From positions 5,022,001 to 5,086,000 of the forward strand of contig OZ017766.1 in NCBI GenBank assembly GCA_963969345.1: 64,000 nucleotides of DNA, in the 5' to 3' direction. The DNA is from Turbatrix aceti (lineage: Eukaryota > Nematoda > Chromadorea > Rhabditida > Panagrolaimidae). Below are positions 13,718-38,200 of the stretch, in pieces; within the stretch, counting starts at the first letter, position 1, and every line of letters begins with the position of its first letter. Made by a program: the position numbers and the translations under genes. Under the pieces are notes generated by a model that was not told where the DNA came from, did no database searches, and saw only the letters and a program-made list of their open reading frames with translations.

Positions 13718-14335
13718 TTAGGGAACAACGCGTCGGGATCGGCGGAGGGACGAAGTGCCGATGCCGGACGAGGAGGCCTCGCAGCGACGCTGCTTCTTCA
13801 TCGGCGATCCGGTGTCGGATCGCTTGCGGGGAGTTGTTTCGTCGTCTCGATGACGGCGTTTCAGGGGAGAACCCCCGGCCTCGGCAAAGCGCTTCTCGTG
13901 ACGGACAGTTTTCTTCGGGGTACGGTAGAGCTTGACGCCGGACAGGTGATCATTTTCGGGGCCGGCAGACGACTTCGCAGGCTCCGGCACCTGGGCTGCA
14001 TCGGGTTGAGCCTCCTCGAGCGATGAAGACGAAGCAGATTCGCCGAGGACGCCGAACGAGACTGGACGGTTCACGTGGGGTCGAGGACGGGCACTGCTTC
14101 GACAGACGACGGCGCGGTAGGCCTGGGGCACGCTCTTGGCATCTACTTTTTCGTAGTGCAAGCCGGCGGCTTCGGCGGACGATGAGGGCATCGGGGCTCC
14201 GTGACGGCAGTCGAACGCCCACTTTTGGCACTTTTCATCGCGCAACTGCTCCGCGAGTTCTGCCATTGGGCGATCGTCTTCGGCAGTCGGGAGGCCAAAG
14301 AGGGCCCGCTTAGCGCGGGAAGCCTTTGGTGGCAT
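13718..14335 (-). CDS. CKI-type (CIP/KIP) cyclin-dependent kinase inhibitor, divergent copy
   Basis: Single coding exon of 205 residues. The N-terminus has the cyclin-binding KRALFG motif (residues 9-14), then an acidic linker and the CDK-binding block KWAFDCRHGAPMPSSS..., then YEKVDAKSVPQAYRAVV, matching the kinase-inhibitory domain order of p27Kip1 and nematode CKI proteins. Family members bind cyclin-CDK complexes in the nucleus and block G1/S. After residue 110 the protein is Ser/Pro/Arg-rich with YRTPKK, SPLKRRHRDDE and SPMKKQRR clusters, which look like CDK-site and nuclear-localisation segments. Unlike the second copy at 34.7-35.3 kb, no PCNA-binding motif is visible. A CCCATTTCAG acceptor ends 8 bases before the ATG, consistent with a spliced leader or a 5' UTR intron. 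GC-rich codons match the housekeeping genes here. Confidence 0.85.
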   Translation of the reverse strand: MPPKASRAKRALFGLPTAEDDRPMAELAEQLRDEKCQKWAFDCRHGAPMPSSSAEAAGLHYEKVDAKSVPQAYRAVVCRSSARPRPHVNRPVSFGVLGESASSSSLEEAQPDAAQVPEPAKSSAGPENDHLSGVKLYRTPKKTVRHEKRFAEAGGSPLKRRHRDDETTPRKRSDTGSPMKKQRRCEASSSGIGTSSLRRSRRVVP

Positions 14336-16106
14336 CGTGGACCCTGAAATGGGAAAAATTGATATAAAAAATAAAAAAACGTGAAAAAGAAAACAAATAA
14401 AAATCGTAAAAGAACACCAAAAAACTGTAAAAGTGTAACATCCAAAACAAAATGGAAGCTAAAAAAACGGATATCATTATTGCTTGCCTTTTATGGACGG
14501 GAATGCTGAAAAATATTTTTCAACGTGTATAAAATCCGACGGAAAACACAATTATCGTCACTTTTTCAGTCCTAATGCAAGTAAAAACAAAAAAAAAACA
14601 AGATCTCAAGTTTATCAAACGCACAGAACATGCAACGAAAAATATTCGGACAAAATGAAAATGGCACAAATAACGAAATCAACGTCCAGGATAACAGACA
14701 AGTCGCAATAACTCTCCAGAGCAGAGCAAAAAGTTTAGGCGCATGAATGGCATGAACGACAAACAACAACAATGCATGACGATTGTCTTCGTCGCCAGCA
14801 TGCGCAACCGAGCAAAGCAATCCACAACGCATACGCAACGCTCTGACCTCAAGTTGGCCGATTTGTGAACATGACACGACTAACTGACGACTGCCATCGC
14901 GAAAGGTGAGTGGCAAAAAATGAGGGTGCATGGAAGAAAAAATCATGCCACAGTACAACACAGTTTTTTTCAACCAACAGTGTTTTTTTTGTTGATCTGG
15001 GGGTTCACAGTTCAACAAAAACACAAATACACGCAATCGATCCGGCTGAACTTGTTGACTGATTTTGCGCAAAATATCCTGCGCAATTTCCATACGAGAC
15101 AGTTTGCGTGACTGGCGTTTTGTTCTGCTCTGCAGAATGCGCGCACATACATAAATGTCCAAACTGATTTTTGTCAAAACTGAAACAAAATGCATACATA
15201 GAAAAAATCCGTTATTTTAGGCATTTTTTAAATTGTGTATAAACAATTTTTTAAATTGGATAAACATTATGGAAATTATTTTTTTTACCAATGATTGTGC
15301 ATGAAAACAAATAACAACCGTTGAATAAAACTTCGGTCCGTCCAAGCCTGGATAAAAATGCCATCGAAAAAGTTTTTATTGTATAAAAAATTAGAAAAAC
15401 GAACATTTCTTATCATTTTCGATAACACATGCAATATATTCTATAATTTCGATATTACTTTAAAATTAGGATTCAACTTCATAAGCAGTGTCGCGTTTGG
15501 TTGCTAGCCGGTCGGTTGGTTGTTGGTTGAGGTGTATTATTTTTTTTATTTGTTCGACGCTCAAAATAAATACGATACTTAGTTATATTATTTTCAAACT
15601 GTTCCGAATATCCTTTTTCCGTCTTCAGAGTTGTCTAAATATTATCTTATACTGGCTTCGTTTTTTTCACGATCCATGTTGTCGGAATCGGCCATGCACT
15701 CACAATCAGTCATTTTTTTGGATTCTCCGTTTCTGTTTATGATCAAATCGCTTTCACAATCCATTTACCCTTTCTTGCTGGGACATTCAGTTTATTTTAG
15801 AAATATCAATTTAAAAAAATTCTAAAGAATTGATTTTTCAATTTCGATATTTTGTTCATTTTTTTGGTAACGCTTCACGCGTTTCAATGATAATACAAAA
15901 TCATGAGACATGTCATTCTTTTTATGGTTCAGCGATCGACGCATCAGAGCTTTCTGATTTATTCTTTAAAAAAACGGTACCTTGTTTTTTGTATATCGTA
16001 TAAAACATATTAAATATCGTTGTATTAAATACATATTTTATGAAACTCGCATACGAATTAATTTACTAAATACCATTGTTTTTTAAGGATCTAACACGTC
16101 AGAAAT
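14336..16106. other. Intergenic, no gene recognised
   Basis: AT-rich spacer between the divergent CKI-type gene (-) and the SecA block (+). TATAAA occurs at 15999-16004, about 105 bases before the ATG at 16107, and could serve the SecA block. The open frame at 14572-15195 on the minus strand lacks recognisable features and is not called. Confidence 0.4.
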
Positions 16107-19100
16107 ATGGATTTTGAAAAGTGTGTGAAAATTCCAAAGGAACCAATAAAAAAATTTCGGAAACATGAATGGGACGACGATTTTAAAGATTGGATGACAA
16201 ATACGGCGTTACCTTTGCAACAAAATCACATAAATAATAATGCGGACACCCTGGACTTTTGTACTCCAAGAAAAAATATTGATACATTGCGACTTCGGAT
16301 TTGTATTTTGCGCTTCGGTATAAAACAAGTATGTTTTTTATCCAATTTACAAAAAATGGTATTATTTCGTTCTAGAGCCTCAAATACAATCTTCAAGCCT
16401 ATACAAAAGATGAAAAAAACAAAATAGAACCATTCATAAAGAAACTAAAAAAAGAATGCGAAGGTGATATCCAATTCAATGTTTTCTACGTTATAGTTGG
16501 CTACAGGCAAGTGGATAACAGGTATTCATCACAGGAAATTCCACGTAAGTAAATAAATATTTACATGTCAATTTTTTTGTACATATAATATTTTGAAATT
16601 TCAGTTCTTCGACTTTCACGTTCTAAGAAAATAATAGCTTTATCGGATCCTGAGTGTTTGTACGATTCTTTCGATGATTACTTGAAAGTGAATAAACTAG
16701 AGAAAAGTGTTCTGCTTTACCCAGCATCTGCTACCTACGCAGTAGAACCCGAAGTTGAACTCCACGTTCGCGAATCATCGTCTTGCGGCCTCGACAGCGA
16801 TATTCAAAACGTAATTGAAACCATGACTACAGTAACATCCATAGCACTAACGGTTATCCCGCCTTTAACCGCACTTCAAGGAGCGGCGTTTATGCAACAA
16901 TTGGCTTCCGGATCTGCATTTTTGACAAACGGCTTCCAAGTGGTCTCAAAAGTCGCCGAATGCGGAGTCCTTGTCGTCGAACGTTTGAATAAGATCAAAA
17001 ATGTCTTAAATTATACACTCAAAGGGATCAATGTTTGTGGAAAAATTCAGCGAAATGAAATGACCACTTCAGAATTGCTGAAACTTATGGCACCCTTACT
17101 GGATAAAGCGACCGGAGCTCTAACAAAACATTGTACCAAAAAAATGAAATCGCTTCTACAACAGAAAAAAAGTTTTGATGAAATTTCAAAAGGTATGTAT
17201 TTAATTTTTTTAAATAAAAAATTTTTTTTACGATTCAAAAATCTTTATAATTTTTTTTTTTAATTTTAAAACATTTATAGAACTTAGCAAAGTTGAAAAA
17301 AGTATGCTGGTCTTGTCGAGAGTGGTGAACGTCATTAAAAATGTGAAGGTACTGACCGTGTCATTTTACTCACTTCTGACAAATCCTGATCGATCTATAA
17401 ATGACGTGAATTCTTTTTGCCAGCATGTATTCACGCTGACAAATACTTTGCTGTCTCCATGGACAGTAAAACAGATGCTTGAAGACACAGAAAAGCCTCT
17501 TCTGGAAGAAATCAACAAAAAGGTAAAATCTGTTTTACATAAAATCAACTATTTTATTTTATTTAACCCAAGTTACAGTCTCAATCTGTGATGGACAAAT
17601 GTATGAAGGTATCCAAATTCGTGACTAGGCATTATGAACAAATTGAAACCCTCACAGAATTCTACAATCAATTGAAAAAATTGCAATTAACGGTTACATT
17701 CAATAAGAATGGAATTGTTCTGGATTACAATAACGCTGTCTTTATTCAGAAATTAGAAGAAATACGGATGCGCTGTTCACGAATTGAAAATATTCTTAAC
17801 GAAGTCCAAAAACTTTTGAAAACTTATAACTTTGTTTCGAGTCTCGTCCAAGACACGCACCGCTTTGCCAACAACGAACTAAGTTTTGACGAATATTTGG
17901 ACCGATTTCAAGCTGCTGAATCCGAGCAAAAAGCTAAAGAAGTTACAGAAAAGGCAGAGTGCAACAAGTTTATGATCGAATACTCGGACGTTATCAGTAG
18001 TGCGGAACGAGCGCTCTGCCATGGAAAAACTTGGGAAGAATGGAATTCCGCCGAACAAGATTTGATAGACGAACAACAAAAGTGAGCGAAAATTATTTTC
18101 AAATTGTTTTTAATTAGTAAAAAAAAATATTTTGTGAGAAATTAATACATATGTGTTTTACAGCAATCCACAAGATGAACAGATCTACAACGAACAATTA
18201 GAAAAAATAGGCCATAATCGAAAACGCGCAGAAGAAATACGAATTCTAAAAAACCAATTTGTAAGCCAAGTTGACAGCGGCGTACACGTTGGCGAAATTC
18301 TCAAAAATATCGCATCCAATGAATACATCACAGAACTTCAAAATCAAGGCGGATCTGATTTTATCCAAAACTCTGTTCAAGTTTTTAAAGATTTGAAATC
18401 ATTGGCCGTGGATAAACGCATAACAATTCCCAACAATTCCGCCGTCGCTAAAAATAGCCTAGAACAGTTGTACGGTGTTTCGAACTACAAAGATATCGTG
18501 GTCAACGGAATAGAACCGTTCCGTGATATTTCCAAAATTGATTTTTCAACTATCTGTCGTTATCTTCAAAATCCAGAAGTGGCAAAAAGCGCCATCGACA
18601 CATCTTTTGAGCTTTTAAAATATATCAACACAACCGTTAATGGAGAGTCCTCAAATCAGTTTGGAGACATGATAAAATTATTAGAGGGGTATACGGTATG
18701 TTCATATTTATTTTCTAATTTTTGTAAAATGACGGAAATTAAATGATATACATAACTTTTTTAGTCTATCGTACTCCGTCCAACAACAGGTAAAAAAGAA
18801 GTCACACTCGAACAAAAATGCGACTTCTGGCTTCAAATTGCCACCGGTGATGATAATGCGGGAAAAAAAGTCCGAACGTTTTTGGACGACTTGAAAAAAT
18901 GCGTCGATCAATGCTATAAACGTAATCCAGAAGTCATTCAATATCGTAATTTTATGACAGCTGGTATCAGTTTTCTGAAGAACTGTAATCCCGAAGACAT
19001 ACATTCTATTACGGCAGAGCAAATTGAACCGTTTCTCGTTGAAACTATGAAAACAATTCAATCTGATGCTCCGGATAACAATATCGAGGATTCTGTCTTT

Positions 19101-19199
19101 TCGCAGAATGACACTGCTCTGGATAAAGTGTATTTGACGTCGAAACCCCGAAGATATTTTGGATCTTCCTCGTTTACGGCTAAAAAAACTGTTATGTAA
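16107..19199 (+). CDS. Large unrecognised protein upstream of, or fused to, the SecA-like protein
   Basis: Seven exons (16107-16328, 16376-16544, 16605-17192, 17281-17522, 17579-18081, 18164-18695, 18765-19199) encode 896 residues, with every phase consistent. I do not recognise a family. The protein is rich in Lys, Glu, Asn and Ile. A hydrophobic, Ala/Gly/Thr-containing stretch at about residues 199-260 (TSIALTVIPPLTALQGAAF...) is the only candidate membrane or packing segment; the rest looks alpha-helical and soluble. Codons end mostly in A or T, like the SecA gene and unlike the flanking genes. The stop may be bypassed: a GTAAAA donor overlaps it (exon end 19195), and the acceptor at 19342 joins in frame to the next gene. 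No AATAAA lies between the two. Either this is the N-terminal third of one giant protein, or it is the first cistron of a pair. Confidence 0.75.
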
Positions 19200-19351
19200 A
19201 AAACAAAAAAAAGTGTCAATGTTTGTGCAAAATTTTTTATGTCGAAAAAAAATGGATTTTTTGTAATGAGTCGAACGCAGAATGGTTTCTTGCCATTTCT
19301 ATATTTAAAAAATTTAAAAAATTGTTGTTTAAATTATTTAGGGTTTACAGA

Positions 19352-22300
19352 ATGTCATCGTATACAACAGAAACTCTTGAATTGGCCGTCAGCGTCAGAA
19401 TATTAGATTCTCCCGAAGCTAGCTACAATGACGTGCTTCGGTCGGTGTACGACGATGAATCGTCAACCCTAACCACGCTCCAGGTGAAGCAATTTCGAAA
19501 ATTCTACATCAAACACCAAAAACGCATTGTACAAAAAAATGGAAAAAATTACATTGCAAAGTTTGTCAAACGCAATGATGCGGTCCTCATCGATTACTTT
19601 GAATCCTGCATCCAAGACAATGCGCTACATCGGTTTTTTAAAAACGAAAACGCGGATTCTGAAGCCGTAAACATCGAATTCAGAATTGGTCATCTTCGAA
19701 AATTTGAAAACGTGAAACCCATTTACGAACTGTTTAGTCGTCATTTTGCAGCCCAGGTAAAAGCCTTCATCAAAGACTCGGAAACTGACTGGCGAAAAAC
19801 ACTCAAAAACTGGCTTCAGTCCGATGCAATTGACTTTGAAACCTGGAAAAAACATGCTCAATGGTTCAAAAGTGGCGCCAAGTTATCTGATTTTTTGAAG
19901 CTGATGCCCCAACAGAATTCAAAAACGAATCAAACCTTGAAAATCAGTGAATTCAAGCAACACGAAAAAATGATAACAATGTTGGGTGCGTTTTCGTCGG
20001 ACTGAACAAATGAATATTTATATATGTATAATTTTATATATGTATAATTTTTAGCTCAAATTTTCATCGAACCGAAAATCACTTTGAATCCCGGAGAAAT
20101 TTTGGTTGAAGGAAAAACAATATTTTTGGAAACAAAATTGGTCAACAAAATTCAAAAATTGCTTGCAAGTGAAAACATTCGGGAAATCAAAATCAAAGCT
20201 TCTCGGTCCTGTATACTGTGCATGGATTTGAATTTTCCAGGTTTGTTTATGAAATTAAAGTCTAAAAAAATACGCAAGTGTTTTTATTTTTATTTTAGAA
20301 ACAAACTTGGTAATTTCAACTGAAAAACTGAGATTGGCGGGAAAATGTGCGATAATTCTCTCGGGCAACGAATATCAAAGTCATCGAAAAGCCCAAAATG
20401 CCACAAACCCATTGGAAAACGGAGCCAATGGAGCAGATGGCAGACAGGGAAGGCCAAGTGGCAATCTGACTATTTTTTCAGATCGCATGGTTTGTGTTAT
20501 TTATGTTTTTAAAATTTTTGCTAATAAGGTATGTTTACAGGTTCAACCTAATTTGCTTACGGTGGTTTTAAACGGCGGAACAGGCGAGAACGGCGAAGAC
20601 GGTGGCGATGGATACATCGGAAAAGACGGAAAAATGGTAACCGCGGACGAAATAACAAAATTATTCCCTCACTACAGTAATCCTCATTTCGAATACGATA
20701 CTTTTCAAAACTATCATCCGGGCGATGATTGGAAAATCCAAATCAACAGCTGTCACGAAGGTTACAAATATATTTACAAAACATTTATCGATTCATTTCA
20801 ACGCAAATTATATTACAACTTCGCCAAACTTCCCGATCAAGAAATCTATCACGCATTTATCCTAATTATCGGCGGTCCCGGAGAACAGGGCACTCTGGGA
20901 GGCAAAAATGGAATTGGCGGTGAAGGTGGATGTCATGGAAAATATCAAATCATAAACCCGGAGACAAAAAAAAAGTACAACATCAAAGTGATTTGCCGCA
21001 ACGGAAAATATGGAAACGATGGAAAACCTGGCAAACCCGGAAGCAATGGTAAAAAGGGAAACGATCGTGCGATTGCTGATGCTTCAAACTACGGTAAAGT
21101 TTGCATCGGTGACGATGAACACACGCTTGTGATGGAAAAGCACTCAATGAGTCTGGATTACTGCTTTTTCGGCGACATGTACTATCAGAAAAACGATCCA
21201 TTGGCGTTCATAGAATTTGTATTGGAACCAAGATGTCAACGAACAATTTTAAATTTTACGCCCCAGTGTACACGTAACACAGTTGTCATGCCATCAAAAA
21301 CGACTGAAAAGTTGGTCACAACAAATATGGATCCACAACCTCCCAGAATTCCAATCGAGCGTCCGGATGATGAAAAAAGTGGTCCTGAAAAGATTTTGGA
21401 AGAAACGCAAAACTTTAGGGATGCCATGGAATGCACATATAACATGGATGTCGAGGCACAAAAATTTGACGAAAAGTTGAATTTGCAAAATATCAAAACC
21501 GACGTTGAGCTACCGCAGACACAACGACCACTCCAAATTCCAATCTGTCATCCGGATGATGAAAAATGTGTTCCCAAACAGAAATTAAAAAAGACGTCAA
21601 GCTTCAAAGATGCCATGGAAACTTTTCTGAAATGCAATGTCCAAGTGGAAACGGAATCTGGCGTCGAAGGATACAAAAACTACCGGGAATTTATTGCCGC
21701 TCAAAACTTTGTTCTTCAAGACGAAACATCTGAAGAAATTAAAACATTGATTAATGCAGGTAAGTTAGGAATTCACAAAAACATTTTTGTACGATACATT
21801 TTATTTTTATTTTTTAGAACCAATTGCTACAGAAACAATAGCACAAAGCCTAGCAGCTTGTTTCGAATTAGAATTCCAACGCATGGTCATCGAACGGGTC
21901 GAATGTTACATGGCCATAACGCGTTACGATTCACTTATCACGTTTTTAACAATTCGTTGCAAGACTCAGTCCGGAATGACTCTACTGTTTCTGCAGTTTA
22001 TTTTGAATACATTTACCCATCTTTACAACAACTATCAAGCAAATCTGGATTTTTTGTTGACAATTCTGGCGGCGAAAGATACATTGGAGTTTGTCAATGT
22101 CATGCTTTTTGCTCGACTTTGTTACCGGTACGGAAGAAGAATTTCGATTGATACCAACATCTGGGATGGCATTTGTCTTATCCACAAAACTCGGCTAAAA
22201 ATTGATCTTGGAGTCAAACTTTCAAATCACAAGGAAGCATTGTCTATCGCAACTTTGTACAAAGTAATTCTCATGCTACAAAACGATGTCAGAGGAGCCA

Positions 22301-25300
22301 AACAACTTCGAGATTTTACCCTGGAAAAGTGGATTGAAATCGCCGAAAAAGGAAATTGGTCTGAAATGAGTTTGGTTGTAAAAGAGTTTGGAACTGCCGG
22401 ATACTATCTCGGCGTTTTGAATGGCAAAGGATTCAAAAAAGCTGAAATTCTATTCAGCGAACTTCTTCGAAATGTCAAATACGTTCCCGAAATTCATCTC
22501 GCTCGAATGGTTTTAGCAATTTGTCTTTTGGAAGTTGAAGAAAAAAACTATGAAAAGTATATCAAAAAATTCGAATCGGTGCTCAAAAAAGGAAATAACT
22601 GGAAATGTCAAAATTTGAAATTGGCGGATAAACATGCAACATTAATTACAAGCGAAGCCATGCAAAAGGAGTTTCGCGAGTTTGTTGGAATTCCTCTGGA
22701 TTTCTATTTGCCAGGCTGCAATAACAGCAGAGAGATCGACGATCTCGAAAGACTCGTTGTTGGTCAACACGATAAAACAGATGAAGAAAAAAGAAAACGT
22801 CGAAAAACTGCGCGAAAGTTCTGCGGCTACCTGAAACAAATGGAGCAAAATGTAGCAAGCACACGTGCTTGTCAGTTGCTGATTGAATTTGACAAACATT
22901 TGTATGAACTATGTGGCAAGAAACTGCGAATAACCCAGAAAATGGCGGTTTTATGTGCCGTAGAATCGGAAAAACACGTTCTCGAACAGGTGAATACAGG
23001 TGAGGGAAAGTCGCTTATCATTGCCGCCATCGCAGTGATCCGATGCAAACGAGACAAACAGAAAGTCGACATAATTACGAGTTCACCTGTGCTCGCACAA
23101 AGAGACGCCGAAGCCATGAAACCGCTTTTTGAAAAATTTAAATTAACTGTTGGCCACAATTGTTCTGAGAATATCGAAACACGCAGAATTGAATACACCA
23201 AAAACATAGTATACGGTGATATTCATAACTTTCAACGAGATTTTTTGCTCCAAAATTTTCTTGGAAATACTACGATGGGCAGCAGGACTCGTGACGTGGT
23301 CATTGCTGACGAAGTTGACAACATGCTGCTGGACAATGGAAACAATATTTTGTACATGTCGCATGAAGTGCCTGGTCTCGACATTTTAAATTCGCTGCTG
23401 ATTTATATTTTTGAAAAAGTTCACGAACCGGTATTCAATGGCCAGAACAACAACGGTGAACGCATGCAATCTGAATTTGAGACCGATACTATCGTTGCAA
23501 ATATGTTAGAACACATTTACGGCAGATTTTCGCTGGAAGACATGAATCAATGCGTCTGCGACAACGAAAAACACATGGCCAATGATGTTCATGATTTTCT
23601 AATTCGGAAGAATGTGATTGACGCTGATGGATATTTGTTGATAACTTCCAAACCAAAAATTGAAAAATTGGGTTTGAAGCTTGCAAAAAAGTTTAATCAA
23701 CAAGTGGCTCAGAAAGTTGTGACAGTTTTAACGATAACGGTGGAAAGAAAATGCGAACTTGCACTGCCGACATATTTGCGTCCGTATGTGAAACGAAAAA
23801 TCCGAGTATTTGTCAAAAACTGCAAAAATTCCATGAACTACGAAGAAGATGATCAGTACGTTATTGACATCAAAAACAAAAATCCAGATTCTGAAACCGA
23901 GCCTCAAGTCATCATCGTTGACAAAAATACGGGGGCCGATCACGCGTCATCGACGTGGTCAGATGCACTCCATCAATTCCTGGAACTCGCACATGGATGC
24001 AGGATTTCACCCCTCAGTATGAAGGCTGTTTTCGTATCCAACGTTGTGTACATTAATGGATACAAAATTCTAAATGGCCTTAGTGGAACCCTGGGATCTG
24101 ATCAAGAAAGCAAAACGCTGATCGAGTTGTACGGTGTGGACGTTATCAGAATTCCGACATTTCAGCCGCGACTGTTTTACGAACACGCCCCAATTTTGGC
24201 CAAAGATGAGGCAAAGTGGTCAAAATGCATCTACGATAAGATAAATGATCAAATCTCGGCTGGAAGATCGTTACTCATTATTTGTAATTCTATCTCAGAT
24301 GCCAAGATGCTGCAAACAAAAATCACAAAATTGTACAGTGAAGAACAGAATCCATCTTTGGTGCAGAAAAATTGCTTTGAAAATGTGGCAATGTACACTC
24401 GAAGCCGGCATGAATTTGAATTTGAAAACGAAAAAGAATTTGATCCGGGAAGGGTGATTATTGCGACGAATCTTGCGGGACGTGGGACGGATATTAAACT
24501 TAGCAAACAGTTAATTGTGAGTTTCAAAAAAATTTTTTATCAGTTCAACAAATTTTTTATTAAAAAATAAATTTCAGAAAAACCGCGGTCTGCACGTTAT
24601 CACAGCATTCATTCCAAAAAACGCTCGAATCGAAGAGCAAGCTTTCGGCCGAGCCGCCCGCTCCGGCCAACCCGGATCAGCCCAAATTATTGCCAGGATC
24701 CAAGGAAAACAGTCAATCTTTCAGTTCAAAACGTCTCGGGACAACGACGAAGCACATAGACTTTCAGAACTCAAACTTCACTTTAAATACCACACTGAAA
24801 TCGAAGAAGGCTGTCTGAAGAAGTTCAGCAGTCACTACGCCAACGTGCTCTGCGAAATACATTCTGCCAAGACTGCAGGCAACGAAATGCGGACGCCGGA
24901 ACAAATTGTATACTTTGCCGTTCTCGACAAATGGGCCATGTGGTTGGAAGAAAGAGAGGACCTCATCGAAAAGTGCAAAAAAATGAACACAGAAAAAAAG
25001 CGCGATCGGGCGAAAGATGACATTATCCAATCTGTTGATAAGTTTTTGAGCCATCACACACTCAACGTTGAAGAAGCGCCGAAGACGTGGCTCGATTTTC
25101 CACAGTCACTGATAGCACTTGGACTACACGAAGCGACCAAGAACAAAGATTTCAAAAAAGCGTTCGAATTATTCGATCAAGTTATCGACAATGATCTGCA
25201 GTTTGCGGCCGAAGCGTATTATTACAAAGCGTGCTTCAGCATGAAATCCAAAAATAACAAAGAAGGCGATCACATCAATGTTGCGTTGGCAGAAAAATAT

Positions 25301-28300
25301 TTTCATATTGTAAGTTTTTTTTAATTCAAATTTTTGAGGCCATCGAGCCGAGCATGGCATATTTTTTAAATCCAATTTTCGCAACTAAAAAAATTGTTGG
25401 CGACAAGCAGAAAATATTCTAAAAATTGTGTAATTTTGTAATACAAAAATATTTTTGGTTCGGCTCAAATTTTTTTGTTCTTACTGAGTTTTTTATTGAA
25501 AATTATATATTTATGTATCTAATATAACTTCCATTTCAGTCACGAACTCTCTTCGCAAATCGTTTATCAGCGTGCATCAAAGAATGCTCATTTATCACGC
25601 AATTTGTTACGGATTTAAACAAAAAATGCACAAAATCAAAGGGATTTGAAAAACAACAAACGGCCATCGCAGATAACATCACCACGGTCATCAACAACAT
25701 TGATTGGATAATTGGGATTCCCTGCACGGAAGACATGTTTGTGAACCAAAATATCGACCAAGCTACCAGCGCCAGTCTCTACGATATATTCTCTACGATA
25801 AGGTTTGTGATTGCGCCTTCCGTGTACATTAACCACAAGCCTGAGCCATTGCTGCTACGGAATCTTCACGACGCTTATGGCATGTCAAACAAAGATATTA
25901 CACAGGCTTTTGCTGAAATCAAGCGGAACACTTTAACTTATTTTCGAGATCCTGAAAAATCTGAAAACAAAGATTCTCAAAGAGATTTGCACGAAGATGA
26001 AAGCAATGCTTTTCGCTGTGCCGTCCGCCATGATTTGGAGGAGAGAATTCATCTTTCCAATAGTCAGGCATTTTTCACTGAATTACACGAAAATGGAGTG
26101 ATCAAAACAAAAATGCATTTAAAATACGCAGATCCAAATCATGAAACTGAAGTTGAAAATGCGATTAAAGCTTCGGATATTCAGTCGGTGGCTTTACCGG
26201 ATAAGGGACATTTTCTGACGATCAACAACAGTGTCAGAGAAGGCCGACTCTACTACAATGTTTCGGCCATTGAAAACCTGAATGTTCCCGACCTGCAAAA
26301 CAAAATGCTGGACGAATTCATCGGCGAAATCTGCCAGGACACCTTACAAAATAAGTTTGCCTACTTCACAAAATTTGACGGTGTTACAGTAACCGAATTG
26401 GCTGACTACTTTGAAATCAGCCTTGCCGGAGCAGCCTGGATTCTGCAAACAATGGAAGAACACGATATTCTGGACCATCAAAAAATCCAAAAAACGCGTA
26501 TTACAACGAACAACCAATTATGGGAAGAAAAAGTCGAAAAATATTTGAGCGACCAGGATAAAATGAATCCGAACGACAAATATTATAACAAAATTCATTA
26601 TGAGCGATTATCAAATCTCCGCAGACTTCGTACCGTCAAAGACCTGCAGCATCTCTCGGCATCGCTCTTGAAACAGGAATGCGAGATACAGAACGAAGAA
26701 GAGCTTCGAGAATTATACCAATGGTTGCAGAACGAAAAAATCATCGAAGACTACGATCAAGATATTTATCGTCTCAATAACCGTTTGGATTTTTCGCATC
26801 TGCCAAAATCCATTGCGGATAGTGTCGACTTTTTTCTGTCAAATAAGTTTGCGTATTCATTTGGAATCGAAAGACTCACCATTGATATGGATGCCGCGAC
26901 CGACGATGCCGAAAACCGAGCAATATTTCACCAAATTCATCTGCCAAAATATCCATACACAGAATTCTTCAACGATCTCGAAACATGTGGATTTGTAATT
27001 TCGCCGCGCATTGTCACAAATGAATTCGAAAATCTCGACAACGATTGCTACGATAACTTTGAGGATATTCAATCAACGTTATGCAATTACGCATCCAAAC
27101 TCCTACACGAAACCGAATATCATCTAGATTTTAATTTCACCGAACAGTTTATAGCCGATCAAAATTTGCCTGTAAACGCCGAAATCAAACACGTCCTCAA
27201 TCGTGGTCTAAAACTCGTCATGGGAGTATCGACTGAGAAAAATGAAATGTGGTCAGGTTTTGCCAACGTTATTAACGTAGCATCAACAATTTTTAACAGA
27301 ATTAAAAAAGTCGGATGTTGGCTGTTCCAAGTAGCATCAGATATTGGAAATTGGATCAGCGACCACACAATCAAACCTCTCTCAAAATTGGCTGCAAAAC
27401 TTTGCATTGGAACAAAAGAAAAGCTTGAGAAATACATCACGGCTTTTACCAGTAGTGAATTATTCCAAGGCGTAAGTAAATGCGTCAAAACCATCGGAAA
27501 ATTTGTATGTCCCATAATTTCTACGATCGGAGACATCAGCATCAAATGCGTCAACGGTATTGTTGAAAATGCGAAAATGATTGGCAACAAAGCTAAAAAT
27601 CTGGCTGTTGAAATCGGTCAGAAAGCTACAGAACTGTATCAAGACGCCAAAAATATTGTCACGTCGTTGGCAGAAGGAATATACAATTCTCAAATTGTGC
27701 AGATGGCAATTAACACTGCTGTAGAAGCTATAAATGTAGCAAAATACGCTTACAGAAAAATGTCTGCACTCGTCAAAGCCGCACGCGAAACCTACGAATA
27801 CTACAATCAATGCAGAGTTCACGCACGCAAAATCGCGCAACACGATGGTCTGGGCATTGATGAGTACACCATTCTTCGGACGTACGTTGAAGCTGGCGAC
27901 ATGGCTGGCGAGGAAGAACCGAGTGACGACGTTTTCAAAAAAGTTGGTTTTTTTATTTTTTTTAAACATGTTGCTAAATATTAAAAAAAAAATTAAGAGG
28001 CTGGCAAAGCACCTTGCATCAATGCATGAAAAAGCTTTTTCGGATCTTCGACAACAAATTGAGTCGCACCTCAGATTGGAATTCGCGAACTATTATCAGG
28101 TGGAAGAAAACGAAATCGACGAAAAATTGGTCCAGGCATTTTTAAGCGGCACTTTGAGCGTTTCTTCGTTCAAAAAAGAACTCGAAGAACAGTACGCCAG
28201 CGAGAGTCAAAAAGTTCGAATTGTATTTACCCATTTGATGGAACAATATGCCTACTACGAAGCTCCTCTCGATGGCATGCAAATGCCGGACTTGGAAGTG

Positions 28301-29050
28301 AACTTCTCATTTGACAGTCTCGAAGGCATTACTCGAACCATTGCCATGGATTACGCCACCGAAGTTAAAATGGCCGAAAACGACGCACCCAAAATCAAAC
28401 CCAGCAAAAAACATCGCGAAAACGCAGACAAATTGACCGAAATGATGGCATCTTTGCTTTGTCAACAAATTTCTGGCACCAGTTGCAATATCTTTGTCAA
28501 AACTACGGCAAAACATTTGGAAAACTTTTTGGTGGAATTACGCAAGCCAGACAATGCGTCAGAATTCAAAGAATTTGATGAGGAAGACAAAAAGATGAAA
28601 AAAACAATTACCGCCTACGAAACAGAAGCTGATGTCAAAAAGAAAAACAGTTCTATGTTGCTCGAATTCTACCGTACTATGCACGATGCCATCGGATCCA
28701 ACAATAGTGATGCACTCAAGGCAGCGATCAAACACGGCATCCCTCTTCCAATCAGTGCACTCAAAGAAATTCTGCCGGCTGTGAGCAAGATTTTGGGAAA
28801 AAAATTAGCGATCAGAACAAACGATAATACGGTATACGGATCGATTCCTGCAACGCTGAAGAAAATGAGCGACGTTTTGGGATGCATTTTTACAACAAAT
28901 GGAGACTATCTGAAGTCCAAACAGGCTGGCATCTATGCGGAGGAAAATGGCATCGATGCATGTCTCTATGAACTGATTGCAGGTGTCAAAGGTAGCAACA
29001 AGATCCCATCCCCTGAGGCGTTTCGGCAACTTTTGATTGATGCTCTTTAA
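19352..29050 (+). CDS. Giant eukaryotic SecA-like ATPase
   Basis: Eight exons (19352-19985, 20055-20240, 20299-20489, 20541-21759, 21818-24516, 24578-25309, 25540-27942, 27998-29050) encode 3,038 residues. Residues about 320-490 hold Gly-rich collagen-like runs (GENGEDGGDG, GNDGKPGKPG). Residues about 1110-1730 form a complete SecA motor: TQKMAVLCAVE, Walker A NTGEGKS (near 1136), Walker B IADEVD (near 1239), GLSGTLGSD, NLAGRGTDI (near 1631) and QAFGRAARSGQPG. Bacterial SecA drives preproteins through SecYEG; no SecY partner is expected here, so the substrate is unknown. A TPR-like pair follows near 1830-1885. The last 1,150 residues are unrecognised, with winged-helix-like segments and a hydrophobic helical region near 2455-2650. 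Large SecA-like proteins are known from rotifers and arthropods. AT-rich codons contrast with neighbours, yet introns are spliceosomal. Confidence 0.85.
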
Positions 29051-29939
29051 TTTTTTTGCGATACAAATGTAATATTTTGTAATATTTTAACAGTTGAAAT
29101 TATTTTTTTTTTGCATTTTGTACTTTTTTGTCATTATATTTTTTGAAGTTTTTATGTCCTGAAAAAAATAAAATCATGCCGTTTTCCATTTTTGCGCAGT
29201 TCTTTGACCACTTTCCCAGACAAAATGATTTTATGGCATTGCTTTATGCGTTTTACCTCGTTACCCATTCCCTCATCGCCGCGCCGTTATTTTTTTCAGA
29301 GAGATACAACTTTTTCGTCGCAACGATGATTGAATGATGATCTCCGCATGCACAACATATCCCTCCTCGTTTGCCGTAATTGTGCAATTTGCCATTTTAA
29401 ATCGCACCGAACGAAGAAAAAAAAACTTGTTCACAAACAACATGGCCTTGAGATCCGAGTCGGCTGTGCCGTGGCTGACTGCCTGACAAATTATTGCCCC
29501 CTTCGTGTCGAGATGATTGCTCGCTCTCGATCGGGGTTGCAATTTTCTCTTACACTCAAGAATGGAGAATGAATGGAGAATGGCACTTGCATGCATGTGA
29601 ATTCGTGTATCGTTGGCATCAAATTGCCATTTAGTTAGCACCCAATTAAACCAGTTACATTTTTCTCCCTTCACAAATCGCTGGTTAGCCAGCCCCGTTT
29701 GTAACGAGATACTGCCACCTGGTGTCCATGACATGACACATATGGCGTCATTTTGGCACGCCAGAACATCCCTCAGGAGAGGGGAGAAGGCTAATTGCGC
29801 ACACTTATCCCCTCCAGATGTTTGTTTACCGGCTGTAGACAGGTCCATGATCGGATACATACATAGATGCTAGCTGCAAAAGTGTTGAAGACAAATTTTA
29901 TTTGAGGAAAAACGAAATTGCACCTGAAGTAAGAAAAAA
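29051..29939. other. 3' flank of the SecA-like gene and spacer
   Basis: AATAAA at 29167-29172, about 117 bases after the stop, is the likely polyadenylation signal. The remainder has no recognised gene. A 195-codon minus-strand open frame at 29273-29860 shows no domain and was left out. Confidence 0.4.
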
Positions 29940-30135
29940 ATTTTTGGAAAAATGTTATGCATCAAATTTGAAAAATTGAAAACAAATTTGTGGGAATAAC
30001 AATTTTTGTGGATTTTTTTGTTACTTTTCAAAATCAGATTTTTACGCATAACATTTTTTTGAATATTCTTTGTTACTTTTCGGGATCAGATTTTTGCAGA
30101 TAACATTTTTTGATGCATTTTTTGTTACTTTTTGG
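29940..30135 (-). repeat. GTTACT...AGTAAC interspersed repeat, cluster 9
   Basis: Mostly reverse-orientation units (TTGTTACTTTTCAAAATCAG ... ATAACATTTTTT), intergenic. Confidence 0.7.
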
Positions 30136-31394
30136 ATCTTGCAAAACTTTTATGAAACTTCTATAAATAATTTGTTTTCATTTCTAATTTCATAATAATT
30201 TTAGTTTAGTTACGTTGATCCCATAAATTTATGGATGGAATGCAAAAAATGATCTCCATCATTTCTTGCTCATTTTTCGGTTCGATCATTCACACCAGAT
30301 TACCCTCCTCATCCACTCCACCTCCAGGGATAGAAGAGTGGACGAAGGAGGAGGAAGCAAACTGCCCATCAAGTGCACTTATCCGCCCCAGATGTTGGTA
30401 TAGCTTTCGCCCCACATGCCAACAGAAATTACTCAAATTATATATTTTTTCCCTAAACCCCCCCTTTCCTTCATCAAGTTTTTTTTCGTCACAAACATTC
30501 CAGAAAATATTTCAAATTGTGGTTTTTGAAAAAGTATTGCACCTTCGCCGACAACACAAAAAATTACGCAACAGATACACAAAAAATAAAAGGTACAATA
30601 CTTTTACTCTCGGTAAAACCTGTTTTTTTGCCGCCAAACTCAATAAAAAAAATGTTGTTTCTATCTATCACGGTGATGAAGAAGCAGCGGTCTTGTCTTG
30701 TCGTGTCCTCTTCCCGCTTTCCCTCAAGCTTTCTCCCACACCCCACCGAAAAAAAACAGGTTTTTGGCGCGGTTTTTTTTCACTGTCTGATTGCGGCAAA
30801 AAATAGCAGTGAAAGTTTTGGGTGTTTTTTTTTGTTGTCTGAGTTCGTGGTTGGGGTTACATGACTCAAGATAGATGGCTACTTCAATGGCGGGGTTGCA
30901 TACATGCTTTTATATTTTTTTCCAGAGAAGACAAAGAAAATTTGCACGATAACCCCGCGCGCGCGTGTGGACAACTTTCTGTTTTTCCGTGCCCCCTCAG
31001 CATGATGCTCTTGTTCTTCTTCTTCGACGACGAAGACGACGAAAACAAGCAATTGCAAGCCACGAAGCTTTTGGCGGGAAATTGATGTGAAATGAGAGTC
31101 GTTAGGACGGCTTGTTTTGCAAATATTTTCTGTTTTCACTTTTCTTACCTTGAAAAGATGCCAAGTGGCCGCTTGGATGCTTCGCTGGTCGTAAATTATT
31201 GCCATAGCAATCACCGATACGAAACACAACTCGTCAACAAATTGCGCATAAACTGGCGAAGAATAAATGCACTACTGCGCAAAGTTATGAGGTCATAATT
31301 TATTGGTTCGCGCTATTTTATTAGGCACTTTTTGAGATCTATGACTTACTGTACAAAATTGGATTAAAATGGATAAATATTACAAAAGTTTGAA

Positions 31395-31540
31395 TACGAA
31401 CCTAAAAAGTAACAAAATATTTACGAAAAAATGTTTCATGCAAAAATCGGATGACCAAAAGTAAAAAAACGAGAACCAAAAAATGTTATACACAAAAATC
31501 TGACTGTAAATGGAAGTAACATATGCGACAAAAATATGTA
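31395..31540 (+). repeat. GTTACT...AGTAAC interspersed repeat, cluster 10
   Basis: Two to three degenerate units (AAAAGTAACAAAAT, GTTATACACAAAAATCTGA, GAAGTAACATAT). Confidence 0.55.
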
Positions 31541-32434
31541 ATAAGTTTAAACCGGTTTTTTTAGATCTCAAAGATCGCATAATAACGAACTGTTTCAAGT
31601 TGAAAAAACTTTTTGAGCGACTTGGACTTATTTGACAAAATATTTTTTATGTTTGATATTAAAATTTGAAATTTTTACAGTAACAGGGGCTGTGAAAATT
31701 TGGTAAAAAAATTTTATTGCATATTTTTTCCAATTTTTGTATGCACATTACACTTTTCTTGACTCTGTCAAAGTCCAAGTCATGGTCAAGAAAAGTGCGC
31801 TAGATTAGCCGATCTTGGCAAACATTGCTCCGAACTACGCCCGGGTAACTAAGACCCACAAAGAGTTCGGCGCCGGTGCCGAAGAAAGAAAGAAGAAGTG
31901 TACTCATCTGGTTGTTGAAAGGTAAAAGTTCAGAAAGCCGAAAAGCTATCACTGTTCTTGCTCGCTTTGCTCGCTCGTTGCCCTGATTTATGATCTTGCT
32001 TCTGCTTTTGCAGCACTGATTGGCCATTAATCGCCCGCCGTGTCCATTGCAACCACATTTGAAACAAAGTTAATGGCGGCTTGAAAAGAAGAGGCAAAAA
32101 GGATCTCGGCGTGTCGCAAAGCCAGTCGCAAACCCGGCATTGTCAGCAAAAACTTTTTAGTGCCGGATGGATGGGTCACATTAGGCTACGCTTGGTCAGT
32201 TGAGGACAATGGACTCAGATAGATTGGTTTACGGCAGGGCAGGCATTCTCTTTTCTTTTTTTTAATCTAGACAATGGAGACCCCACATGGAGTAGGTATT
32301 TAGTGAGGATCAAAGGAGTGCCGTCATTTTGATGTTTACAGGTTTTTCTCGGGGTTCTCGGAAAGTTAGGGAATTGGATGCAGAAAAAGAAAAAAAGCTA
32401 ACGTAAAATTAAGATTTGCTTATAATTTCACGGA

Positions 32435-32620
32435 TTTGAAAACATAACACTTCGCGGAATTTTTTTGTTACTCCGCATAACATTTATCATTCGCAAAATG
32501 TTACTTTTCAAAATCAGATTTTTGGTAGTAACATTTTTTGACCGCTGTTTTGTTACTTTTTGTTTTCAGAATTTTATGAATAACACTTTTTGGTCGTTTT
32601 TATGTTACTTCAAGTGAACC
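32435..32620 (-). repeat. GTTACT...AGTAAC interspersed repeat, cluster 11
   Basis: Four reverse-orientation units (TGTTACTTTTCAAAATCAGA, GGTAGTAACATTTTTTGACC and similar), intergenic. Confidence 0.7.
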
Positions 32621-34695: not shown

Positions 34696-35280
34696 TCAGA
34701 ACCGAACAATCGACGCCCGTGGTCGGCGGATGGGTGAAGCACCGGCCGATGATAGCACGGGCTGGGACCTGCGGGAGGAGGATTTTTTGATGCCACCGGA
34801 TGCCACCAGAGAGGCCCCCCCAGGCTGCTTTCGGACACCCATAAAATCCGTGATACGTCGCTGGCGGGTGACCTTCTTCGGCGTTCGGTACTTTTTGATG
34901 CCGGAGAGATGCTGTTCGATGCTCGAATTGGCATCTTCCATGCTCGAGTCTGGATCGCAGTTTTCGTCGTTGGTCGACGTGACAGAATCGTTAAAGATGT
35001 CGAAGAAGACGGGTCGGATGGTCGAAAGCCGTTGTTTCGGGGCCCGTGGAGAGCAGACGATGGGTCGGTAGACTTCTGGCACGACAGCCGCGTCCACCTT
35101 GACGTACTCAAAAACCGTCGACGAAGACGAAGGCATGGGGGCTCCGAGATCGCAGTCAAAAGCCCATTTCTCGAATTTTTCGCGACGGATTCTGTCGGCC
35201 AGCTCGGAGATGAAGCAATCGTCTTCCGGCGCCGGCGTGCCGAAGAGAGCTCGTTTAGCGTGACGTGAAGCAGTGGTCAT
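34696..35280 (-). CDS. cki-1: CKI-1-type CDK inhibitor with PCNA-binding (PIP) motif
   Basis: Single coding exon of 194 residues, starting at the ATG that follows a TTTTTTTCTAG acceptor by 13 bases. The kinase-inhibitory domain is complete: KRALFG cyclin-binding motif (residues 8-13), KWAFDCDLGAPMPSSSS, then FEYVKVDAAVVPEVYRPIV. Near residue 140 the motif QRRITDFMGVRK fits both a PIP box (Q-x-x-I-x-x-F-M) and the TD-plus-basic-residue rule of CRL4-Cdt2 degrons. Caenorhabditis CKI-1 and human p21 carry similar motifs in the C-terminal half. The tail is Ser/Arg-rich with SP sites. The protein should restrain cyclin-CDK in the nucleus and be removed in S phase when PCNA is on DNA. It is paralogous to the copy at 13.7-14.3 kb. 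Long gene-free flanks on both sides suggest complex developmental control. Confidence 0.88.
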   Translation of the reverse strand: MTTASRHAKRALFGTPAPEDDCFISELADRIRREKFEKWAFDCDLGAPMPSSSSTVFEYVKVDAAVVPEVYRPIVCSPRAPKQRLSTIRPVFFDIFNDSVTSTNDENCDPDSSMEDANSSIEQHLSGIKKYRTPKKVTRQRRITDFMGVRKQPGGASLVASGGIKKSSSRRSQPVLSSAGASPIRRPRASIVRF

Positions 35281-38200
35281 CTTTGCTTGCAACCTAGAAA
35301 AAAAAATTAAAAAATTGGTCAAAGTTCAAGTTGAACAAAAAAATATTAGAACGAACACACGCCGCAGAATGTCGCGTCTCGACTCAATAGATCAAAAAAT
35401 GAAATACCACCACACACCGACACTCTCGGGGGGTGGGTGGTTGTCGTTCGCGCTCGGGCTCGGGCTCGTGCTCGGCCGACAGAACAGACGAAGGCAAGGT
35501 CAAGTCCGGTTGTCGTAGGGAGGAGCCAACAACTGAGTGCGAGAGGGGGGGGGGGGGTGCGCGGGATAATCCAAAGCCAAGCCAGGCTGGCCGGGATAGA
35601 TTTTTGCCGGCTAAGTCCCGACTGACCCCCTCGGTTAGTCGCAAACAAACCTCAATAGTACACGCCTGGCCTGGGTCAAGAGGTGCCAATTACAATTGTT
35701 CACCTTTACGAGACCTCACAGGGGGTGCCAACTACACGACCTGCCAGTTGGTCGTGGCAAGGTGAAAGGTGAATATCAATTTTTTTGGGGATAGAAAAAA
35801 TTATGAATCGTAATTTATGTTTGATCGGAGAGAAAATAATTTTTTTTTGTGAATCATACGAAGCAAAGCATTGATTTGTATGATAGATACATGCAAGCTG
35901 GTAGAACTGGGCAGACTAGACTGACTGACGCGAAGAAAGCGATTAGAGAAAGAAAAACTGGCAGTCATCCAAGCGGGACAAAACAGTGGCTGTGGCTGAT
36001 AACTGTACCACACACCTGAGCCAGGTCAGCACGATGTACGATACGATACGATATTTATTTGTTAAACAAAAAAAAAGAAAAATTTATAATACAACCGCAA
36101 AAAAATATATTATACATTTATGTACGCAGACAACGAACGAGTCATCCTGGCGACCGGCCAGCCAGCCAGCCAGCCTGTTTGCCGGTCGGTGGCTGGCAGC
36201 TATGACAAAACCCGACCGTCCAACCAACCGAGGAACCCTCGTTTGCTGTGTTGTGCTGTGCTGTAAAGACAAAAAGGGGGAGAAAAGAAGACCGGACAGC
36301 CGCCGCGTCGGCCGCCGCTCGCTCAGTCAGTCGGCAGGCAGGCAGGCAGCGCCGCCTCCTTTTCCAAACCTCCTCCCCCTCTAGGATCCCCCTTCCCCTT
36401 CCCCCCTCTTTTTTCATGCCCTAAGATGACGTACCGATAACCTGTTACCACCGGTCGGCATCCAACCATCCAAGGAGGAGTATGTGTGTCGGCATGGCAT
36501 AGAAATGCCGACCACGGCTACGCGCTCTGATTCCGATCAACTGATGAGATGCCATCTCTCATCTCATCTCTCTTCGCATCACGCGTCGCAAAGGTGTTTG
36601 TGAAAAATATAGTTCCGACATTTTTTGATGCGTGCGTGTGTCAAAAAAAATTACCTACCATAACCCTCCACTAAGACTGTAAAAAACGAAAACACAGAAA
36701 TAAAACACACAGGCACACGATGAAAAAAAACGCCTGATAAAACGGCCCGCGTTGATAAGCCGATCAGTTGCAAAAAAAAACTGTAAGACGAGGTGGAGGG
36801 GTCCGGTGTTGTTGTACAGTCGTAAAAGAGTAAGAATTGTATTATAAAAAAAAACGGCAATCAAGGGAAAAATGAAGAATACCTTTACGGAAAGGTTTTT
36901 TGGAAAAAAATTGATAGAAAGGTTGAAGTTTTTGTTTTTTTAAGGAAAAATCTTTGAAAATTGATGCTACAAAAAAAGGAGGGGAAGTAGAAAAATGACC
37001 ACCCACGCAGGTTGGCTGACGCAAAAGATACCGCAGACGATGTTTGAAGTGCGAAAGTCATTTAGCATTTTTAAAACAATTGTTTTTAATTTTTGTGGAA
37101 TAACAGATACAATTTTTTTTATTTAACAAAATCAAAAAAAAATATTTTTTTGGGTTTCTGCGATGCTTACGTTACCATAAATTTTTTTCTAAAGCCGTGG
37201 CTTACGTACTATCTATCAACGACCTAGTACCTACCTGCGACTGGCCTAGCTCCGAAGCACCCTTCATCCTTAAAAAAACAAATTTTATCACCACCTTTTT
37301 TTTCCTTAACGCCGGCATAATAACCACCCAGCAACCAATGTAAAACGATTCTCGATACCGTATCTTCTGTCAGAGTCTAGAGTCGCTCCTTCTCATGTCA
37401 GTTTGACGGGCACCTTTGATTAGAAAAAAATAGACCAAGAAGACTTTTTTCTCTTTTTTCCTTTCTGATGCTAACTACCCGTGAGAAAAAGTACCGGGCT
37501 ACACCCTATTATTTTTTGGTGTGCCAAGAAAAAAAGGAAGAAAACCGATGCCAATCTGCGATTCTGTGATTTTGTACAGGACGGAATAATAAAAATATTA
37601 TGGCACGCCTTTTTGTTGTGTAATTGTCTAGGTTTTGCCCACAACAAGTGCAGGGCGTGGGGTGGGAAGAAGTGATTGTATCTGATTGCTTGGAATTTTT
37701 ATAGACAGAAAATAAACCAAAATAAAATAGAAAATTTTTTGTTGGGGTTTTTCGGTTTTTTTTAATTTTTTTTCTGCATTTAAAAAAAAGTTTATATCAT
37801 CCAGAAAAATTCTGTCGAATTTTGGAAACCTTCTGGGAAATTTTTTTTCACAAAAAAACTAAAAAAATGTATCAATTTTTTTTCGAAACCCAAAAGAACC
37901 TAATCAAAACCCATTTTTTTTCATTCTTTCATGTTTTCTTATTTCCATGTGTCAATTTGTTATTTCAAAAAGTGTTTTTTCACCTCTTCGTTCCTCTCCA
38001 GGAGAAAAAAAGTGCGTTTGAATTTTGCTTCGTCAACAGCAGAAAAAAAAAGCCAAATTGTTTTGCGCACATTCAAAAAAATAGAAGTGTGAAAAGATCA
38101 CAAAACGTTTTGTGAAAAGAAAGAAAGAAGAAAAAAATACCAAAAAGTGAGGTAAGACACACACACAAATTTGGCGCGTTTTTTACGCGGTTTCTGGTGT

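Follow-up and report, generated by a model that had tools for sequence, protein, structure and literature searches.

In a 64,000-nt stretch of the genome of the nematode Turbatrix aceti (positions 5,022,001-5,086,000 of OZ017766.1, assembly GCA_963969345.1; this whole stretch is called the window, and its own positions are used below unless a contig is named), a gene for a giant SecA-type motor stands directly behind a gene of the DUF4781 family (PF16013), and the conserved unit in nematodes is this DUF4781-SecA two-gene pair. SecA, the preprotein translocase ATPase, is usually seen as a machine of bacteria and plastids. Here, selection preserves a SecA motor with a predicted clamp in an animal chromosome, where it is tied to a single partner gene; this makes a concrete two-component system and gives DUF4781 its first functional context. 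The identification of the gene as a SecA-type motor is made with high confidence, and any statement on its exact substrate with low confidence. Our combined reading, evenly balanced in our judgement, is that a SecA-type polypeptide motor was acquired horizontally, that it stems from a partly toxin-like bacterial family, and that it works with DUF4781, probably at a membrane.

The SecA-like gene encodes a protein of 3,038 amino acids (aa) in 8 exons from 19352 to 29050 (+), which was the single stop-free combination among the splice-site combinations tried, and all 7 of its introns are GT-AG. Its motifs follow in SecA order, at residues 1136 (NTGEGKS), 1241 (DEVD), 1631 (GRGTDI) and 1667 (GRAARSGQPG). 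The parts of the gene are as follows:

19352-19985, 20055-20240, 20299-20489, 20541-21759, + strand: exons 1-4 of the SecA-like gene
21818-24516, 24578-25309, 25540-27942, 27998-29050, + strand: exons 5-8 of the SecA-like gene
20400..21164, + strand: Gly-rich region, residues ~308-545, split by the intron 20490-20540 and common to animal and Wolbachia relatives
21820..22836, + strand: predicted alpha-helical region ahead of the motor, residues 745-1083 (model)
22837..24093, + strand: SecA_DEAD match, residues 1084-1502, with NBD1, PPXD clamp and joint (Pfam and model)
22993..23013, + strand: Walker A, NTGEGKS (motif position)
23308..23319, + strand: Walker B, DEVD (motif position)
24478..24495, + strand: GRGTDI motif (motif position)
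24647..24676, + strand: arginine-finger motif GRAARSGQPG in exon 6 (motif position)
25540..29050, + strand: tail (exons 7-8, residues 1888-3038), where no Pfam family passes its cut-off

In the Pfam scan of the window protein, exon 8 had no match and exon 7 had matches below cut-off only. Exon 4 carries a 97-bp direct repeat (73%) at 21335-21431 and 21524-21620, which sits in a fast-evolving linker (residues 546-743) with 25% identity to the copy of the gene on contig C5.

Pfam matched the window protein to SecA_DEAD (4.2e-24) and P-loop_SecA (8.5e-11) above cut-off and to SecA_PP_bind (1.9e-4) just under it. In a sequence search of the PDB, 24 of 24 matches at E <= 0.01 were SecA, and when the motor model was compared with the PDB by Foldseek, the top 34 rows were all SecA. 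In the model, Walker B and NBD2 are separated by the preprotein clamp (PPXD), and 436 residues align to 6itc_A (3.2 A) versus 326 to the isolated motor 3bxz_A; the nematode motor is thus modelled as having kept its clamp, and the retained clamp points to a polypeptide substrate. A search of a viral structure library with the model returned general helicases only, and that the protein is a nucleic-acid helicase of superfamily 2 seems improbable to us. The residues of catalysis (both finger arginines, TGEGK, DEVD and GRG.D) do not vary among 16 diverged members of the family and are also kept in the 4 other copies of the Turbatrix genome. Since these residues are conserved and the motor is constrained (see below), the nematode motor is very probably still an ATPase.

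Compared with canonical SecA, the nematode protein has the same NBD1, PPXD and NBD2 fold and the same catalytic motifs. Canonical SecA is a protein of ~900 aa, whereas the nematode protein is far longer, is encoded in an animal nucleus, belongs to a clade of its own on a long stem, and lacks a detected SecA_SW or zinc motif: SecA_SW (PF07516) gave no match listed for pieces of the window protein and 0 in the whole genome (the control query was positive in 10 of 14), and the C-terminal zinc motif (SEC-C pattern) was absent from the window protein. These differences bear on the idea that the protein acts with a Sec61/SecY channel in ordinary preprotein export. The NBD1-PPXD-NBD2 arrangement does match SecY-bound SecA, and the genome has two SecY-family loci (C6:4610140-4611234 and C2:2984952-2986539, SecY/Sec61-alpha family) and one SecE-family match, which were not told apart from Sec61 subunits. 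However, with SecA_SW not found in the genome, no zinc motif, a separate clade of giants with a patchy spread, and a pairing with DUF4781 that is kept, we give ordinary export little credence.

The DUF4781 gene occupies 16107-19199 (+) in 7 exons, and two stop-free splice choices give a product of 896 or 898 aa. It matched PF16013 with 37.4 bits against a cut-off of 27.9 (35.8 bits in the genome scan). The features of this gene and of the junction are:

16107-16328, 16376-16544, 16605-17192, 17281-17522, 17579-18081 (or from 17573), 18164-18695, 18765-19199, + strand: exons of the DUF4781 gene
19344..19350, + strand: TTTACAG, splice-acceptor-like, 1 nt before the SecA start codon; possible trans-splice site

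A profile search of the genome found SecA_DEAD at 5 places: three on contig C1 (the window locus and two others, denoted C1b and C1c), one on C4 and one on C5. The same genome holds 14 DUF4781 matches, grouped into 9 gene places, of which 5 are beside the 5 SecA loci, 1 is on C2 and 3 are in tandem on C6. DUF4781 thus adjoins 5 of 5 SecA loci, and in 4 it precedes SecA on the same strand. The two genes are 152 bp apart in the window, C5 has a gap of 323 bp and C1c one of 579 bp; at C1b, SecA starts ~0.8 kb past the last recognised DUF4781 similarity. An AG acceptor lies 0-6 nt before the SecA ATG in all four same-strand loci (window, C1b, C5 and C1c), which suggests trans-splicing or an intron in the 5' untranslated region. 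DUF4781 genes without a nearby SecA_DEAD match lie at C6:4860731-4877540 (three, with near-identical score) and C2:6566303-6567446.

The pairing extends to other nematodes. With the window DUF4781 protein alone as query no homologs were found, and with the four paralogs one was found, Diploscapter P0121; the Diploscapter pachys homologs of the two genes carry adjacent locus tags, WR25_21480 and WR25_21481, both on a 138,021-bp contig. In Halicephalobus, a single predicted protein, P0004, carries a near full-length DUF4781 match (residues 24-854) ahead of the giant, and P0009 resembles it. This may be a true fusion or a join made by gene prediction; the genes are adjacent either way. Our searches of open-licence papers gave no description of the DUF4781-SecA pairing.

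The genomic setting is that of a nematode nucleus. The assembly has 60 Mb in 28 contigs, and the window lies on C1, which is 12.7 Mb long; besides the pair, the window encodes an Srh-type chemoreceptor (nematode-type), an arginyl-tRNA synthetase and an RNase H domain. The copies were modelled from spliced alignments with our own script: the C5 copy is complete (3,052 aa), C1b and C1c are long, and C4 is divergent. Both C5 and C1c have six of the 7 window-gene introns at identical alignment column and phase, and 4 are likewise common to C1b, whose model begins later. Because these positions are common to the copies, the introns are older than the gene duplications, which disfavours contamination. 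Wolbachia and Rickettsiales do carry relatives, as a contaminating contig or a recent insertion from one symbiont would have it, but against the introns, the neighbouring genes on a 12.7-Mb contig, five dispersed copies and a closest relative in Diploscapter among the matches listed, we regard this explanation as negligible.

Selection acts on the motor. Between the C5 and C1c SecA genes, the nonsynonymous rate (dN) is 0.157 and the synonymous rate (dS) is 1.095, with a dN/dS of 0.14 (2,760 of 2,810 codons after an identity filter); for the DUF4781 genes of the same two loci, dN is 0.243 and dS 0.849 (820 of 854 codons after the filter). With no identity filter, the C5/C1c motor (window residues 1101-1700) has a dN/dS of 0.06 and six other regions have 0.12-0.24, and the motor is under purifying selection. 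The comparison of the window gene with C5 is near saturation (dS 3.8), and third codon positions differ most, 0.56 versus 0.33 and 0.23. A decaying relic without function would agree with C1c, which may be disrupted, and with the shortened DUF gene of C1b; the full-length frames in the window and at C5 and the C5/C1c ratios make it very improbable.

The initial annotation, made from the letters of the window, had described an intron-bearing, spliced 3,038-residue protein with motifs in SecA order, and the gene model and motif positions bear this out. Its calls of a SecA motor and of a nuclear gene are upheld by the Pfam, PDB and Foldseek matches in the first case and by the contig, the neighbouring genes and the dispersed copies with shared introns in the second, and its expectation that the conserved motor probably still hydrolyses ATP agrees with the invariant residues and the low motor dN/dS. 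It had left the substrate as unknown, which stands, with the clamp pointing to a polypeptide. It missed the DUF4781 partner and the toxin-like relatives described below.

A protein search gave 301 homologs at E <= 0.001, of which 120 were listed. Among those listed are proteins of nematodes, bdelloids, insects, crustaceans, a spider, Wolbachia and a Rickettsiales metagenome-assembled genome (MAG), together with metagenome proteins. The window motor nests with giant SecA-like proteins of invertebrates and Wolbachia, which also match in their Gly-rich N-terminal region and giant size. The main tree had 125 rows, with 10 canonical SecA as its root; by hand, 38 of the listed proteins and 8 rows from bacteria were excluded, and the program warned of long bacterial branches. 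In this tree, 114 relatives are split from the rest by a stem of length 1.15 with support 100, and 86 rows, among them all named animal and Wolbachia rows used, group as a clade with support 99. Sequence comparison thus places the family apart from housekeeping SecA, and it is common to intracellular bacteria and invertebrates.

Within the clade, nematodes and bdelloids form one group of 43 rows (support 99), and one Plectus protein lies outside it, among arthropod rows. A more careful tree was made of 41 rows of this group (P0031 and P0032 were excluded as long branches, and the long branch P0117 was flagged). Here, the six named bdelloid rows fall at four places among nematodes, two of them with Panagrolaimus proteins, and a single bdelloid clade is rejected by the approximately unbiased test (p-AU 9e-6; the test was picked after viewing a quicker tree). 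The simplest reading of these placements would be transfer from nematodes to bdelloids more than once; old duplication with losses may account for some of the four. Wolbachia sequences stand beside those of Chilo and Artemia on short branches, and the Rickettsiales MAG beside the spider, placements that may reflect misassigned symbiont contigs in those animal assemblies. Because bdelloids fall at four places and Wolbachia and Rickettsiales lie inside the arthropod group, several movements are needed, and the trees suggest repeated passage of these genes among bacteria, nematodes, rotifers and arthropods. The initial annotation had foreseen the relatives in rotifers and arthropods that were found among the homologs listed, and the motor does group with animal relatives rather than within a single symbiont; its single old horizontal transfer gives way to several movements.

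Such mobility raises the alternative of a selfish element, either a toxin-antidote pair or the cargo of a giant transposon moving between animals. The dispersed copies each with the same neighbour, the bdelloid and Wolbachia placements and the toxin-like bacterial kin would suit it. However, a comparison of the flanks of the five loci found only short dispersed repeats in common outside the two genes, with no shared flanks or terminal repeats; moreover, the copies are old, with shared introns, and the motor is the most constrained region. We consider a selfish element unlikely, short of dismissing it.

Bacterial relatives were collected by a prokaryote scan with one genome per species (29 loci among 56 matched stretches) and a viral-contig scan (3 among 74). 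The motor open reading frame (ORF) is at least 2,000 aa in 15 of the 30 loci examined (of 32), reaching 4,195 aa, and several are cut by contig ends; a further frame has 4,932 aa. Of 12 such genomes examined, 11 also encode a canonical-type SecA alongside the relative. The large new domains that the initial annotation had taken to be gained in the animal are thus not borne out, for the bacterial relatives are already giant and the Gly-rich region is common to Wolbachia, with homology outside the motor not established between the animal and the non-Wolbachia bacterial giants. The Gly-rich N-terminal region was not found fused in these other bacterial giants; a Gly-rich ORF beside the Legionellales giant L027 has a weak likeness to P0041 (E 0.002, low complexity) and none to P0011 (E 0.13). 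The planctomycete relative L051 has a position close to the base of the giants. Relatives were also seen on plasmids of the Rickettsiales-type symbionts Candidatus Megaera (CP113870.1) and Candidatus Bandiella (NZ_CP110822.1) and of Legionella geestiana (NZ_CP041715.1), with 27-32% identity to the Rickettsiales protein P0100.

Domain scans of 15 bacterial and viral-contig giants found SecA_DEAD in 15 of 15 and SecA_PP_bind in 7 of 15, and domain positions are known for 10. The C-terminus of L048 is an LHH nuclease (2895-2975 of 2,981), and that of L055, a viral-contig record, is a WHH/colicin-type nuclease (3468-3550 of 3,555); in both, the nearest downstream ORF encodes a SUKH protein (6.4e-33 and 3.7e-23, respectively). 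In L029, the motor is followed by ADP-ribosyltransferase-like matches, with one family just above cut-off and one below; in L037, it is preceded by an OTU protease. The existence of bacterial giants with toxin-type nucleases and immunity genes suggests that there is a class of effectors equipped with a motor of their own, and our searches of open-licence papers gave no description of a SecA-motor/SUKH-toxin architecture. That the bacterial cousins are partly toxin-like suggests a borrowed machine or weapon kept in working order by the animal. A common upstream partner of the bacterial giants was sought and rejected: similarity among the upstream genes was confined to two Rickettsia endosymbionts, with a weak likeness to L055, and none is DUF4781. 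In those two endosymbionts, related ankyrin-repeat genes lie directly upstream of the giants L033 and L041.

Several observations weigh against our combined reading. The C1b DUF4781 gene looks shortened, the C1c SecA copy may be disrupted, and the C4 DUF4781 gene has a divergent sequence and lies ~8 kb from SecA on the other strand. DUF4781 within the same protein was seen only in P0004 and P0009 among the 120 homologs listed of 301. A scan of 29 genomes or records that hold bacterial relatives gave no DUF4781; it had no positive control, though its query was positive in the Turbatrix genome. On this result, the pairing is probably not ancestral. A similar scan, also with no positive control, gave 0 in 369 genomes of the class of the Legionellaceae MAG. 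Since the AF2 (AlphaFold2) model of DUF4781 is poor, with a mean pLDDT (predicted local distance difference test score) of 52, a membrane role can be read only from its hydrophobic stretches. Furthermore, 6 of the 10 bacterial giants scanned singly are without a toxin-type domain, and Pfam recognised no toxin domain in the nematode protein, and so not the C-terminal toxin domain with adjacent immunity gene by which polymorphic toxins are defined. A single, weak PDB match to DUF4781 (E 0.029) was not believed.

Related systems have been described in part. The likeness of phage WO SecA to invertebrate proteins is already published: in the available part of PMC5062602, SecA is among the phage WO domains more like invertebrate than bacterial proteins. 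As for the SecA of the phage WO eukaryotic association module, Wolbachia giants, which may be these same proteins, share the animal/Wolbachia clade; nematode members differ from the phage WO SecA, as described there, in their introns, their clade with bdelloids and their DUF4781 pairing. The portion of PMC4452313 at hand describes secondary SecA_DEAD proteins that lack most of SecA_SW and lie beside type I secretion genes. Like these, ours is an extra SecA_DEAD protein without most or all of SecA_SW in a conserved neighbourhood, but its partner is DUF4781 and the protein is far larger; the planctomycete relative L051 may be one of these secondary proteins. Relatives L048 and L055 resemble the polymorphic toxins with WHH/LHH nucleases and SUKH immunity of PMC3482391, whereas neither nuclease nor SUKH was found for the nematode protein; in the text available of that paper, SecA-like domains are named only among Amoebophilus effectors. 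Table 1 of PMC5037449 places a 'SecA DEAD-like domain' transcript in the top 30 genes up-regulated in sexual versus parthenogenetic females of Daphnia similoides; provided that this label is correct, a gene of this kind is transcribed in an animal. DUF4781 appears as an uncharacterised domain in the available parts of three papers: PMC10875847 has it together with a Death domain in a snail, PMC12580581 alongside HopBF1 in Burkholderia, and PMC12220480 in a rotifer. No SecA or translocase was found in the accessible portions of two horizontal gene transfer surveys of arthropods and ants.

In our proposed working of the pair, the motor would hold an unfolded polypeptide in its clamp and move it by ATP hydrolysis, a step suggested by the fold and the catalytic residues. 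The DUF4781 proteins, which have hydrophobic stretches and are predicted helical, may be the motor's partner, probably at a membrane. The motor could have as its substrate a polypeptide of the host or of microbes, or else the tail of the giant itself, and the nematode protein would not act like canonical SecA with its scaffold/wing domain. A conflict-related role, such as antimicrobial defence or a selfish function, may be proposed on the grounds of the toxin-like relatives, the number of copies, the patchy distribution and the setting of DUF4781 in the snail. A much bolder proposal, which we hold to be doubtful, is that DUF4781-SecA is a working animal protein-translocation machine, and so the first system driven by SecA outside bacteria and plastids. 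It would thread a polypeptide through or onto a membrane device formed by DUF4781 and would have been built in nematodes from a horizontally spreading bacterial 'motorised toxin' as an antimicrobial or selfish weapon.

Some minor features surround the pair. A mobile element was considered and rejected: inverted repeats of at least 30 bp within 13.5-36.5 kb are A+T-rich, and two inverted-repeat pairs that bracket most or all of the gene pair (30 bp, 77%) were taken as chance. Two similar ORFs, 13718-14458 (-) and 34696-35325 (-), which share KRALFG... and WAFDC...GAPMPSS, bracket the DUF4781-SecA pair, so that it looks as if it had landed inside a tandem pair; we take them to resemble p27/Kip-type CDK (cyclin-dependent kinase) inhibitors, with no Pfam match at 0.001. 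Directly 3' of the SecA gene, at 29935-32610, lies a repeat cluster rich in TTTTTGTTACTTTT, in direct and inverted orientation.

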